From: a virus
DNA: 21,381 nucleotides
Direction: 5' to 3' (one strand)
IMG/VR virus record: IMGVR_UViG_3300048011_000330
Span: 1 to 21,381 of that record
Shown here: in pieces, positions 5,646-13,323 of the stretch
How positions within the stretch are numbered: position 1 is the first letter of the stretch
Layout: every line of letters starts with the position of its first letter
Notes under the pieces: generated by a model
Seen by the model: the letters and a program-made list of their open reading frames with translations, nothing else
What the model was told of the DNA's origin: nothing
The model's database searches: none
Program-made: the position numbers and the translations under genes

Positions 5646-6197
5646 ATGGCTTGTGACTTAACGAGAGGCAGAAAAGAACCGTGTAAAGACTCAGTAGGCG
5701 GCTTGCGAGCAGTTTACTTTACAGACTTCGGTGATTATGGTACAGTGACTCAGGATGCTGACGACCAAATTACAGATATGAGCGGTACTTTTACAGCCTA
5801 TAAATACGATTTAAAAGGGAGTAGCAGCTTTGAGCAGGCTATAACCGCATCCCGTGAAAACGGAACAACTTTCTTTGAGCAGACACTTAACCTTACTTTG
5901 AAAAAATTAAGCAAAGAAGATCACAAAGAAATTAAGCTTTTAGCTTATGGACGCCCCCACGTGGCGGTAGAGGACTACAATGGTAACGTCTTTGTAATGG
6001 GCTTAGAGCACGGAGCAGACGTATCAGGCGGAACTATTGTGACAGGTGGTGCAATGGGAGATCTTTCAGGATATACCCTTACAATGACAGCGCAGGAATT
6101 AAAACCTGCTAACTTTGTAGACACACCTACAGCATCAGATCCGTTTGCCGCTATGAGTAGCGCAACAGTAACAGTAACAGTTGGAACAAATAGTTAA
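5646..6197 (+). CDS. Probable major tail (tube) protein
   Basis: A 183-residue protein starting MACDLTRGRKEPCKDSVGGL, then VYFTDFGDYG, AYKYDLKGSSSFEQAI, ENGTTFFEQTLNLTLKKL, LLAYGRPHVAVEDYNGNVF and GGTIVTGGAMGDLSGYTLT. I recall this type from flavobacterial phages as an abundant structural protein. The beta-rich pattern and size fit tail tube proteins, and the threonine-rich C-terminus (ATVTVTVGTNS) is typical of surface-exposed virion ends. It lies between two intrinsic terminators, so it may be transcribed by read-through or as its own unit. An alternative is a head decoration protein. Confidence 0.65.
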   Translation: MACDLTRGRKEPCKDSVGGLRAVYFTDFGDYGTVTQDADDQITDMSGTFTAYKYDLKGSSSFEQAITASRENGTTFFEQTLNLTLKKLSKEDHKEIKLLAYGRPHVAVEDYNGNVFVMGLEHGADVSGGTIVTGGAMGDLSGYTLTMTAQELKPANFVDTPTASDPFAAMSSATVTVTVGTNS

Positions 6198-6216: not shown

Positions 6217-6248
6217 AAGGGGTAGCCGCAAGGTTGCCCTTTTTTTTT
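6217..6248 (+). terminator. Intrinsic terminator with GCAA tetraloop
   Basis: GGGTAGCC (6220-6227) pairs with GGTTGCCC (6232-6239), with two G-T wobbles, around a GNRA-type GCAA loop, followed by nine T residues. It ends the tail protein unit and lies immediately upstream of a promoter. Confidence 0.88.
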
Positions 6249-6267
6249 GCATTTTTTTTAAAAAAGC

Positions 6268-6298
6268 TTTGGTAGTTAATAAAAAGTTTATATGTTTG
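6268..6298 (+). promoter_or_regulatory. Bacteroidetes-type promoter
   Basis: TTTG (6268-6271) and TATGTTTG (6291-6298) are separated by 19 bases. This is a full match to the Bacteroidetes sigma consensus (-33 TTG, -7 TAnnTTTG, 19-20 bp apart). Transcription would start near 6305, right after a terminator, and would drive only the gene at 6431-6667. Confidence 0.75.
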
Positions 6299-6314
6299 TA
6301 CTGTCAATAACGAC

Positions 6315-6369
6315 AAACAATTAATAAAAGGTGTTAAGAGCATCAAGAAAATTTCGAAACAATTAATAA
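6315..6369 (+). repeat. 13-bp direct repeat in the leader
   Basis: AAACAATTAATAA occurs exactly at 6315-6327 and again at 6357-6369, with start points 42 bp apart. Both lie just downstream of the predicted transcription start, where a repressor or an RNA-binding regulator could act. It may also be chance in AT-rich DNA. Confidence 0.5.
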
Positions 6370-6430
6370 CTTACTTTCAGTACAAGAATTAGATGGATTA
6401 GTAGAAAAATTAGAAATTGTAGATTTCTTT

Positions 6431-6667
6431 GTGTCATTAGCTAATGAAGCGTATGAAGATGATTTTGTGGAAAGAGCAGAAGAATTAGAACACTTCATAG
6501 GATTAATGAAGCATCATTTTGACATTCCCAACTTTGTAAGCGATAAACAAGAAGATGACTTTAAACATCTACTAATAGAAAAAAGAAGAAGCCTAATACG
6601 AGAATACAAGACTAACGAACTTGTTATAGCAGCAGAAAAACTTAAAGAGGCTTTAAAAAAGTGTTAA
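6431..6667 (+). CDS. Small acidic helical protein in an isolated transcription unit
   Basis: GTG at 6431 is the only canonical start in this frame, giving 78 residues: SLANEAYEDDFVERAEELEHF, then FVSDKQEDDFKHLLIEKRR and LVIAAEKLKEALKKC, all helical. The frame stays open and protein-like upstream to 6338 (HQENFETINNLLSVQELDGL, VEKLEIVDFF), so the true N-terminus may lie there through an unusual ATT start, a frameshift or a sequencing error. The gene has its own promoter and terminator. No family is recognised. Its place after the tail tube gene would suit a tail assembly chaperone, but its autonomous transcription fits a moron better. Confidence 0.6.
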   Translation: MSLANEAYEDDFVERAEELEHFIGLMKHHFDIPNFVSDKQEDDFKHLLIEKRRSLIREYKTNELVIAAEKLKEALKKC

Positions 6668-6671
6668 AAAG

Positions 6672-6703
6672 AAGGGGTAGCAGAAATGTTACCCTTTTTT
6701 TTT
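6672..6703 (+). terminator. Intrinsic terminator after the isolated small gene
   Basis: GGGTA (6675-6679) pairs with TACCC (6690-6694), followed by nine T residues. The stem start resembles the terminator at 6217 (both contain GGGGTAGC), and the two bracket the small gene. Confidence 0.75.
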
Positions 6704-6738
6704 GCTTAACATTTTGCAACTTAATTTATTGTTATTAT

Positions 6739-7080
6739 ATGATCGTGTTAGAAGAGAGCTCTAGTGAGCAAACAATACAATTTATACCGCGCAGCTTTAC
6801 AAGTGGCGACAGCTATACAGTTAAGGTAGTAAACGAAACGACTGGCAAGACAGTACACAACGCAAGCAGTACAGGCGTGACTGAAAACCTGTATTATAAT
6901 GAATATACAGCCGTTTTTAGCCTGAAACAGAATAATTACTATACTATCACCATAACAGGAACAGAAGTAGTCTTTAAGGATAAACTATATTGCACAAACC
7001 AAGCTGACTTGACAAGTTACACCGTAAACAGCGGTCAATACACAACTAAAAGCAGCGATAACGAATTTATTACACTATAA
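6739..7080 (+). CDS. Virion-associated hypothetical protein (113 aa)
   Basis: The ATG at 6739 is chosen because the longer frame from 6661 would run through the terminator hairpin. The product starts MIVLEESSSEQTIQFIPRSF, followed by alternating beta strands (YTVKVVNETTGKTV, YTAVFSLKQNNYYTITITG, VVFKDKLYCTNQ), and ends in YTVNSGQYTTKSSDNEFITL. I recall similar proteins next to portal genes in flavobacterial phages with no assigned function. The stop overlaps the portal ATG by one base, suggesting translational coupling. A head or neck structural role is likely from context only. Confidence 0.65.
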   Translation: MIVLEESSSEQTIQFIPRSFTSGDSYTVKVVNETTGKTVHNASSTGVTENLYYNEYTAVFSLKQNNYYTITITGTEVVFKDKLYCTNQADLTSYTVNSGQYTTKSSDNEFITL

Positions 7081-8819
7081 TGGATAACTTACACATTGTT
7101 AATTTAAGCAGCTATAATAGACCCAAAATTGTTGAGGATAAAAAACGCCGCTGGATAGCATACGGAGAAGACAACAATTACTATCAATACTTGATTGAAC
7201 TTTACACTAACTCATCTACAAACAACGCTATAATTAATGGAGTTGGAAATATGATTTACGGTAAAGGTATTGACGCCTTAAACAGTAGCCAAAAGCCTGA
7301 CGAGTATGCAGCCCTTAAAAGTATATTTCACGACAAATGCTTACGCAAAATATCACTTGATTTAAAATTACTAGGCGAGGCCAGCTTTCAAGTTATTTAC
7401 CAAAACGGTAAAGTAAAGCAAGCTGAACACTTTCCACGTCAAACATTACGCGCTGAAAAATGCAATAAAGATGGATTTATTGAGGCGTATTATTATTCTA
7501 ATGACTGGGCTAACGTAAAACCTAACGACCGCCCTAAACGTATTGCAGCCTTTGGCTTTGGTAATGGCACAGAGCCAGAAATTAAAATTGTAAAACGCTA
7601 CGTGAGTGGGTACGATTATTATTGTCCTGTAGATTATCAAGGCGGTCTGGCATACGCTGAGCTAGAAAGCGAGATAAGCGATTATCTAATTAACGATGTA
7701 CAAAATGGCTTCAGCGGTACGAAGGTGGTGAACTTTAACAATGGCGTCCCTGATAGAGACAAACAACACAGCATCAAGAATGATGTAATGCAAAAGCTAA
7801 CAGGCGCAAGAGGTGAAAAGGTTATTATCGCTTTCAATAACAACGCTGAAAGTAAAACCACGATAGACGACGTACCTTTAGACAACGCCCCAGCGCATTA
7901 CCAATATTTATCTGACGAGTGCGCTCGTAAACTTATGGTAAGTCACAGAGTAACATCACCCCTTTTATTAGGTATTAGAGACAGCGGAAACGGCCTTGGA
8001 AACAATGCGGATGAAATTAAGACCGCCTCTCTGCTTTTTAGTAACATTACCATACGACCATACCAAGACCTTATTATTGAGGCAATAGATGACATCTTAG
8101 CGGTAAATTCGGTGAGTTTGAAACTTTACTTTAAAACATTACAACCGCTTGAATTCATAGAAACTGATAATGCTATTACTAACGAGGCACGTGAAGAAGA
8201 AACAGGTGTTAAACTTGCAAGTGATAAACTACCTGATGCGGTTGCTGATATGCTAATTGAAAAAGGCGAGGATGAAGACCTTGATGAGTGGGAGTTGGTT
8301 GACGAACGTGTTGTTGATTATGACCAAGAAGAAGCACTTGACAAAATGATAGGCCTAGCCAGTACAGGTTCAGCACGGCCAAACGCTAACAGCGAACAAG
8401 ATGGCCAAGTTGATGAAAAACGTTTTAAGGTTCGTTATCAATATGCGCCTTTAACAGTAAACAAAAATGACCAAGGTACGCCAACATCAAGCCGTGAATT
8501 TTGCGTTAAAATGGTACAAGCTACAAAGCTATACCGTAAGGAAGACATATTACAAATGGAACAGCAAGCCGTAAATGCTGGGTTTGGCCCTGATGGTAAT
8601 GCAACTTACAACATCTGGCTCTACAAAGGCGGTCCTAACTGCCATCATTATTGGATGCGTAAAACCTATATGGCTAAAGGTGCAAAGCCAGACCCTAATA
8701 ACCCAAACGCTGAAATTAGTGTAAACAAGGCAAAAGGCGAAGGCTTTAAACCACAAGTGAATCAGAAAGAAGTAGCAACTAGACCAGTTGATATGCCTAA
8801 CCAAGGATACAAAAATTAA
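7080..8819 (+). CDS. Portal protein with C-terminal accessory domain
   Basis: At 579 residues this is the likely portal, the dodecameric channel for DNA packaging. The first 400 residues fit: WIAYGEDNNYYQYLIELYTNS, NNAIINGVGNMIYGKGI, ISLDLKLLGEASFQVIY, then YLSDECARKLMVSHRVTSPLLLGI and TASLLFSNITIRPYQDLII. This profile is known from Bacteroidetes phage portals. Residues about 449-535 form a separate unit (FKVRYQYAPL, REFCVKMVQATKLYRKEDIL, AVNAGFGPDGNATYNIWLYK, GPNCHHYWMRKTYM) with conserved-looking Cys and His. It may be a remnant of a MuF-like partner or a head-maturation domain. The connector gene follows by 6 bp, supporting the portal call. Confidence 0.8.
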   Translation: MDNLHIVNLSSYNRPKIVEDKKRRWIAYGEDNNYYQYLIELYTNSSTNNAIINGVGNMIYGKGIDALNSSQKPDEYAALKSIFHDKCLRKISLDLKLLGEASFQVIYQNGKVKQAEHFPRQTLRAEKCNKDGFIEAYYYSNDWANVKPNDRPKRIAAFGFGNGTEPEIKIVKRYVSGYDYYCPVDYQGGLAYAELESEISDYLINDVQNGFSGTKVVNFNNGVPDRDKQHSIKNDVMQKLTGARGEKVIIAFNNNAESKTTIDDVPLDNAPAHYQYLSDECARKLMVSHRVTSPLLLGIRDSGNGLGNNADEIKTASLLFSNITIRPYQDLIIEAIDDILAVNSVSLKLYFKTLQPLEFIETDNAITNEAREEETGVKLASDKLPDAVADMLIEKGEDEDLDEWELVDERVVDYDQEEALDKMIGLASTGSARPNANSEQDGQVDEKRFKVRYQYAPLTVNKNDQGTPTSSREFCVKMVQATKLYRKEDILQMEQQAVNAGFGPDGNATYNIWLYKGGPNCHHYWMRKTYMAKGAKPDPNNPNAEISVNKAKGEGFKPQVNQKEVATRPVDMPNQGYKN

Positions 8820-13208: not shown

Positions 13209-13236
13209 CAGTATTGTTTTTTTAGTTGTTTGTATA

Positions 13237-13266
13237 AGAGAGGGGGTTGTTCCCCTCTTTTTTTTT
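13237..13266 (+). terminator. Strong intrinsic terminator after ninG
   Basis: AGAGGGG (13239-13245) pairs with CCCCTCT (13252-13258) around a six-base loop, followed by a run of nine T residues. It separates ninG from the recombination and replication genes. Confidence 0.88.
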
Positions 13267-13294
13267 GTTTAAGTGAAAAAAATTTTATAACTTG
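13265..13294 (+). promoter_or_regulatory. Possible promoter for the ERF unit
   Basis: TTG (13265-13267) sits 20 bases upstream of TAACTTG (13288-13294), a loose match to TAnnTTTG. The position, after a terminator and 30 bp before the ERF start, is more persuasive than the sequence. Confidence 0.35.
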
Positions 13295-13323
13295 CAAATG
13301 TTTAACAATTAAAAAAGCAATTT

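Follow-up and report, generated by a model that had tools for sequence, protein, structure and literature searches.

Morons of lambdoid phages are single genes, equipped with their own promoter and terminator, that lie between conserved structural genes and are absent from most relatives, with different genes occupying the same site in other relatives. The products of morons often act on the host or on other phages. In Shine-Dalgarno initiation, a duplex of RNA roughly 6 bp long lies a few nucleotides upstream of the start, and the intergenic-region IRES of dicistroviruses, about 190 nt long and with three pseudoknots, is a structured RNA that directs initiation at a non-AUG codon. According to PMC9976891, Bacteroidia ribosomes do not use Shine-Dalgarno sequences, the 16S tail being held by bS21, bS18 and bS6. 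In a purified Escherichia coli system, a proper initiation complex formed on UUC when IF3 was left out but not with the full set of factors (PMC7907450); this control experiment was the only account of UUC or TTC initiation in the portions of the open-licence literature that were available. Among titles and abstracts of the same literature, nothing on the hairpin described below appeared under non-AUG starts or morons of Bacteroidetes phages, IRES-like RNA of phages, Flavobacterium phage leaders or DUF805b.

The cassette analyzed here lies in a stretch of viral DNA of 21,381 bases and 36% G+C, a whole IMG/VR virus record that we call the window. Like a lambdoid moron, it is a single gene with a predicted promoter and terminator of its own between conserved structural genes, missing from most relatives and replaced by other genes in some; unlike one, it has a leader with two hairpins (H1 and H2), no canonical start codon and a second site among recombination genes. 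Comparative evidence suggests that a structured RNA may direct non-AUG initiation here, which would recall the dicistrovirus IRES; the cassette leader is only about 54 nt long (<60 nt from promoter to UUC), has two simple hairpins and no demonstrated pseudoknot, belongs to a bacterial virus and includes an element, H2, that serves AUG starts too. The H2 duplex resembles a Shine-Dalgarno helix in length and placement, but is an intramolecular hairpin with only scattered 16S matches. DUF805b RNA (RF02914), another structured RNA, immediately precedes H2 in a number of phage leaders, but is absent from that of the window, where H1 takes its place. The cassette itself is apparently a moron of a known kind, and the surprise is its leader with an apparent UUC start.

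A mobile cassette among structural genes

The window encodes a tape measure protein, head protease-like, capsid-like and portal proteins, NinG, and Erf-like, helicase-like and exonuclease-like proteins. Among isolates, its portal protein is closest to those of Nonlabens phages P12024S and P12024L (35.6% identity), which points to a member of the Flavobacteriia as the likely host. The cassette had been placed amid head and tail genes by the original prediction, and it does follow a capsid-like gene and the gene that we labelled 'tube' for this analysis (encoding a 183-aa protein of phrog_19091) and precede a 113-aa gene and the portal gene (Table 1).

Table 1. Positions of the cassette, its parts and its surroundings in the window
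Feature	Position	Strand	Basis or remark
Left flanking gene 'tube', 183 aa, phrog_19091 (function-unknown family)	5646..6197	+	left border of insertion site
Terminator of left flanking gene	6217..6242	+	terminator scanner; fold z -3.65; kept in empty sites too
Bacteroidetes-type promoter TTTG-N19-TATGTTTG	6268..6298	+	zero mismatches to pattern TTTG-N19-TAnnTTTG
Leader hairpin H1 (UGUC-AAUAAC-GACA)	6302..6315	+	covariation
Leader hairpin H2 (GGUGUU-AAG-AGCAUC), containing in-frame UAA 6335-6337	6330..6344	+	covariation, folding
A-rich spacer, 8 nt, from H2 to proposed start	6345..6352	+	alignment
UUC, proposed start codon, invariant	6353..6355	+	family codon table, alignment, locus selection
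Moron ORF, 104 codons plus stop, all-helical protein	6353..6667	+	conserved frame, family comparison
Cassette terminator	6672..6697	+	-17.8 kcal/mol, z -4.83; same place in homologues
Right flanking gene, 113 aa	6739..7080	+	right border of insertion site
Portal gene	7080-8819		after 113-aa right flanking gene
Second insertion site (NinG / Erf-like)	13209..13323	.	empty in window; holds cassette in other phages

The full promoter match and both terminators had been predicted from the same letters, and all three were recovered, the promoter without a mismatch and the terminators folding beyond shuffled sequence. The terminator at 6672 is missing from the scanner's list; its fold energy and its homologues back it as real. 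On both strands of the window there are four full matches to the promoter motif, compared with 0.73 expected in shuffles (none of 100 shuffles reached four). The other three fall within genes on the minus strand, and a lone match is therefore weak evidence. The full motif is, in addition, found upstream in 25 of 30 loci that combine the H2 hairpin with an ATG-less ORF, and such conservation of the predicted promoter is stronger evidence than a single match. Transcription would start near 6305. In these phages, terminators, including that of the cassette and those at many of the loci, often have a common loop, CAGAAATG, so that neighbouring terminators would be alike enough to act as recombination points.

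The distribution of the cassette was examined in 80 relatives gathered by their portal protein, in which the gap between the left and right flanking genes was measured. This gap was readable in 69 relatives and was empty in 57, where it measured 79–147 bp (median 94) and, in 56 cases, contained one terminator; it was longer in 12. A homologous cassette occupies the site in one relative (L043) and unrelated inserts occupy it in seven (L020, L029, L040, L061, L062, L066 and L075), while L078 and L086 have a second tube-like gene in the gap. The long gaps of L071 and L079 are uninformative, the 113-aa gene being undetected there. Outside the portal sample, an ORF-based search retrieved L005 (98%) and L006 (51%). 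Loci found by their leader include cassettes of the same type at the window's site (for example, L099, L117, L127, L131, L144 and L155) and at a second site between NinG-like and Erf-like genes (for example, L091, L100, L109, L113, L120, L178 and L303), which in the window is empty and holds a terminator at 13236. The presence of one cassette family at two sites argues for a portable unit. A simple finder placed a terminator-like hairpin upstream of the cassette in 29 of 33 rows and downstream in 18 of 33, counts in which L285 is an ATG-start comparison gene rather than a cassette and at least two rows can share one contig. The cassette is, on this comparative evidence, portable, usually framed by terminators and provided with its own predicted promoter. 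The moron interpretation of the original prediction is supported by the empty gaps, the unrelated inserts and the two sites: far from being shared by every relative that has these flanking genes, the block is absent from most of them between the same two genes, carries a promoter and terminator recognized by sequence, and moves as a unit.

Some of the other inserts at this hotspot were inspected individually. In that of L040 (1660-2086), a promoter of Bacteroidetes type and a terminator were seen, but no obvious ORF and no Rfam match near threshold; it may represent a non-coding phage RNA that travels as a moron. L029 (5977-6742) has two stacked terminator-promoter-gene-terminator units, both with an ordinary ATG, and the insert of L020 (2460-2982) is apparently coded on the minus strand, with a gene of GIY-YIG type by eye.

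Leader hairpins of the cassette and of other phage genes

Both H1 and H2 were predicted from the family alignment and both covary; the family leaders contain 18 double-changed cells, compared with 6.4 in shuffles, a value reached by none of 500 shuffles. H1 occurs in the family as GUC-AAUAAU-GAC and also as AGC..GCU and GAC..GUC. The consensus of H2 is GGNGUU-ARG-AGCN'UCA, in which N-N' is U-A, G-C or G-U in the cassette family and C-G in two other phages, and three of the four counted pairs of the stem are invariant in the family. H2 alone folds beyond shuffles (z -3.69), and the leader of the window as a whole folds no better than shuffles (z -0.75). In the widest scan, N-N' was paired in all 15 distinct H2 matches with ATG at +17 (GC 7, TA 6, CG 2) and in 9 of 25 matches belonging to neither class, where L097, L101, L303 and L310 look like true leaders with another spacing.

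In other phages, H2 usually lies 6 nt before an ordinary ATG, which is usually 17 nt past the U of the UAR in the loop. The genes that follow differ: a major capsid protein gene in L103 (PF05065), and ParB-like genes in L106 and L107 (below the Pfam cut-off, with PHROG matches down to E 4e-12). The occurrence of H2 before different genes in different phages, with ATG at a near-fixed spacing, indicates that it marks translation starts. On one contig (L137:4443-5100), three consecutive small ORFs each have their own H2 and an ATG at +17. The 132-aa proteins of L290 and L310, which by eye seem homologous, are likewise encoded behind H2; their ATG lies at +17 and +18, respectively.

DUF805b RNA was found directly upstream of the H2 leader in 8 of 15 records tested. 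An Rfam search of the window gave no family at gathering score and no match to the DUF805b covariance model, and among weak matches (up to E 10) within 6240-6760 none fell on H1 or H2. We also scored H2 against one 16S sequence (L321), from the family of MAG G021: the best pairings, of 8-9 bp, were scattered and none lay at the 3' end, so that H2 as a Shine-Dalgarno leader complementary to the 16S 3' end was rejected for this one 16S. A tRNA in the same contigs was looked for with ARAGORN, which called none in 23 loci. A tRNA-like sequence (T-arm and acceptor ends) was recognized by eye in L098 (1218-1336), uncalled by ARAGORN and with DUF805b RNA directly after it. The reverse complement of H2 may resemble rrn boxA.

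The element is nearly absent from host genomes, which argues against a host origin. The exact H2 pattern was found in 4 of 299 genomes of the host group; only the match on the phage contig of MAG G021 is a true leader, two others having unpaired stems and one (L216) no fitting start. An H2 covariance model matched in 3 of 397 genomes, twice weakly and once strongly. In records of isolate phages, BLAST retrieved no protein match and only DNA matches at chance level, a search that is weak for so short an element.

A conserved frame and its invariant UUC

The prediction of one short gene stood in that an ORF is present and ends at the stop codon 6665-6667, while the ORF originally listed for it, 78 aa from GTG 6431, is too short. 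The conserved frame (frame 1) extends over 6338-6667, with the UAA of the H2 loop as its upstream limit; throughout the family, TAA or TAG adjoins codon 1 as part of this loop. The 29 distinct family coding sequences share no ATG, GTG or TTG within their first 40 codons, and all 109 codons of L159 and of the near-identical L179, on a contig of a Flavobacteriaceae MAG, are free of them. In the hairpin of L159, UAG replaces UAA; this locus was the only one of 19 found in a protein-based search for relatives that was not already known through its leader. An ordinary start is unlikely to have been missed: upstream of UUC, the leader of the window has no ATG in any frame, and the first in-frame ATG is codon 57. 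GTG 6431 (codon 32 in the window) is not conserved in the family, and an upstream start followed by frameshift or readthrough was rejected on inspection by hand, stops lying just upstream of H2 in every frame in at least some family members. The median dN/dS in the family is 0.53 (247 pairs), which indicates moderate selection on the protein. The 29 distinct frames are free of internal stops down to about 30% identity (three are cut by contig ends within 57 codons), and the family has a synonymous excess at conserved columns.

The protein would be 104 aa long if read from UUC, and AlphaFold2 predicts it to be all-helical (mean pLDDT 92.6, pTM 0.71). Searches of Pfam, PHROG, PADLOC and NCBIfam with the cassette proteins gave no convincing match, the lowest E-values being 0.0018 (phrog_11363, a family of unknown function, 10 of 22 members) and 0.0019 (JetA, 1 of 28 members), and Foldseek with the protein model gave nothing under E 0.001. 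A Rop-like fold was considered and set aside; the best VIA Z, 6.1, is ordinary for helical bundles, and the Rop-like matches are not evidence. The product would be a small helical bundle, most likely one directed at the host or at competing phages, as is common among moron products.

Codon 6 of the frame is TTC in all 29 family sequences, at +18 after the loop U, where ATG would stand. This is not explained by codon usage, since Phe is mostly encoded by TTT further on (TTT 197 and TTC 18 of 215 later Phe codons). Codon 5 (6350-6352), just before it, takes the form of 8 codons for 7 amino acids in the same 29 sequences. The codon table left out L098, L119 and L127, which have TTC too, and alignment A3 left out L180 and L185. 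With the hairpin and an ATG-less ORF of at least 80 codons as sole criteria, 30 loci were obtained, 29 of them with TTC; these include the window itself (L001) and close copies, the loci being redundant (several ids per contig) and their distinctness judged by sequence. Some search patterns required TTC, and the two that did not supply nearly all 30 rows. The exception, L300, has an unpaired hairpin on a contig of 51% G+C and is probably a chance match. In a 28-row alignment with the distant relatives L119, L127 and L303, Phe1 is the sole invariant column.

A DUF3846 protein (PF12957) is encoded behind H2 twice, in L285 with ATG and in L098 with TTC (Pfam scores 38.2 and 32.3 bits, respectively; gathering cut-off 27.5). 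The two proteins are 33% identical, and Tyr4 of the former aligns with Tyr9 of the latter, which places Met1 on codon 6, the TTC; this equivalence of ATG and TTC comes from one homologous pair, in which L098 is one contig. The L098 gene has no ATG there, and around TTC its DNA hardly differs from that of the moron family, so its leader may be a captured one.

Synonymous change in the family is low just after UUC (pS 0.215 in alignment codons 11-30, about 6356-6400 in the window, compared with about 0.5 later), which suggests that the RNA element reaches into the coding sequence. Taking the codon table and alignments together, we infer that UUC is the first codon read.

Proposed initiation at UUC and its alternatives

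We consider it probable that the cassette is a mobile one-gene moron in which H2 is a translation-start element that fixes the start site, at AUG in most genes and at UUC in this family. The broader proposition, that Bacteroidetes phages carry a portable hairpin start signal that replaces the Shine-Dalgarno helix on ribosomes blind to it and is strong enough for a start at UUC, with which initiator tRNA does not pair properly, we favour only slightly. Measured from the proposed start, H2 would be about 9 to 23 nt upstream, approximately where a Shine-Dalgarno helix lies. In the proposed mechanism, a short mRNA made from the predicted promoter would form H1 and H2 in its leader; H2 would occupy the position of the Shine-Dalgarno helix on the 30S subunit, as its intramolecular stand-in, and fix the start about 7–8 nt downstream of the stem, a placement that could let the ribosome accept UUC. 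The partner of H2 may be the ribosome itself, or else a phage factor by which the ribosome is recruited. The failure of UUC with all factors in the E. coli system implies that an unusual step is needed, for which evasion of IF3 is a candidate, and a UUC start would be expected to give low or conditional expression.

Alternatively, the chief role of H2 could be that of an operator bound by a phage translational repressor or activator, in which case UUC would keep basal expression close to nil before the factor acts. Such an operator might look like H2, a small hairpin whose loop hardly varies, whose distance from the start is nearly fixed and which each phage has in one or few copies; H2 also recalls operator hairpins such as that in RNA for the MS2 coat protein. 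No common candidate regulator was found, however, and the genes behind H2 differ among phages (capsid, ParB-like, DUF3846, small ORFs), which makes this reading rather unlikely. The invariance of both UUC and the loop GAG would also fit an IRES-like arrangement in which the two pair, forming a compact pseudoknot (a 4-bp stem, a 3-bp second stem and an 8-nt A-rich loop) that mimics codon-anticodon pairing, so that codon 7 would be the first codon read. By eye the H-type geometry is possible, and codon 7 varies freely (GAA, GAG, AAT, ACA), but the pairing needs a G-U pair while the better-pairing CUC never occurs, and H2 leaders with an ATG start keep the same loop without UUC; we hold this to be unlikely.

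A start at a varying AUA or AUU, or at GTG 6431, with the conservation upstream acting at the RNA level only, appears distinctly improbable. ATA is the second codon after TTC in 23 of 29 sequences, and the depressed pS of the early codons, like the GTG at codon 32, would suit it. Against it, the window has ACA at that second codon, no near-cognate codon is common to all, and L159 and L179 are devoid of ATG, GTG and TTG; moreover, the codons after TTC vary in ways that preserve amino acids, and the DUF3846 alignment reaches back to three codons from TTC. That the start has been lost altogether, leaving a decayed gene or a non-coding RNA whose ORF is untranslated, is barely credible: the missing start codon and the dN/dS value might be read in this way, but the uninterrupted frames, the synonymous excess at conserved columns and the confident AlphaFold2 model speak for a maintained protein.

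If initiation at UUC were proved in a bacterial virus, it would to our knowledge have no described bacterial counterpart. How ribosomes of Bacteroidetes find their start sites when Shine-Dalgarno pairing is not used is a standing problem, and a 15-nt phage hairpin offers a direct handle on it. Should the UUC starts be true, gene callers limited to ATG, GTG and TTG would miss or truncate such genes, some phage proteins would be coded wholly without AUG, GUG or UUG and escape current gene-finding programs, and the hairpin would supply a compact, portable means of initiating translation in Bacteroidetes. Anti-host and anti-phage genes can in turn be sought at the hotspot where the morons insert.
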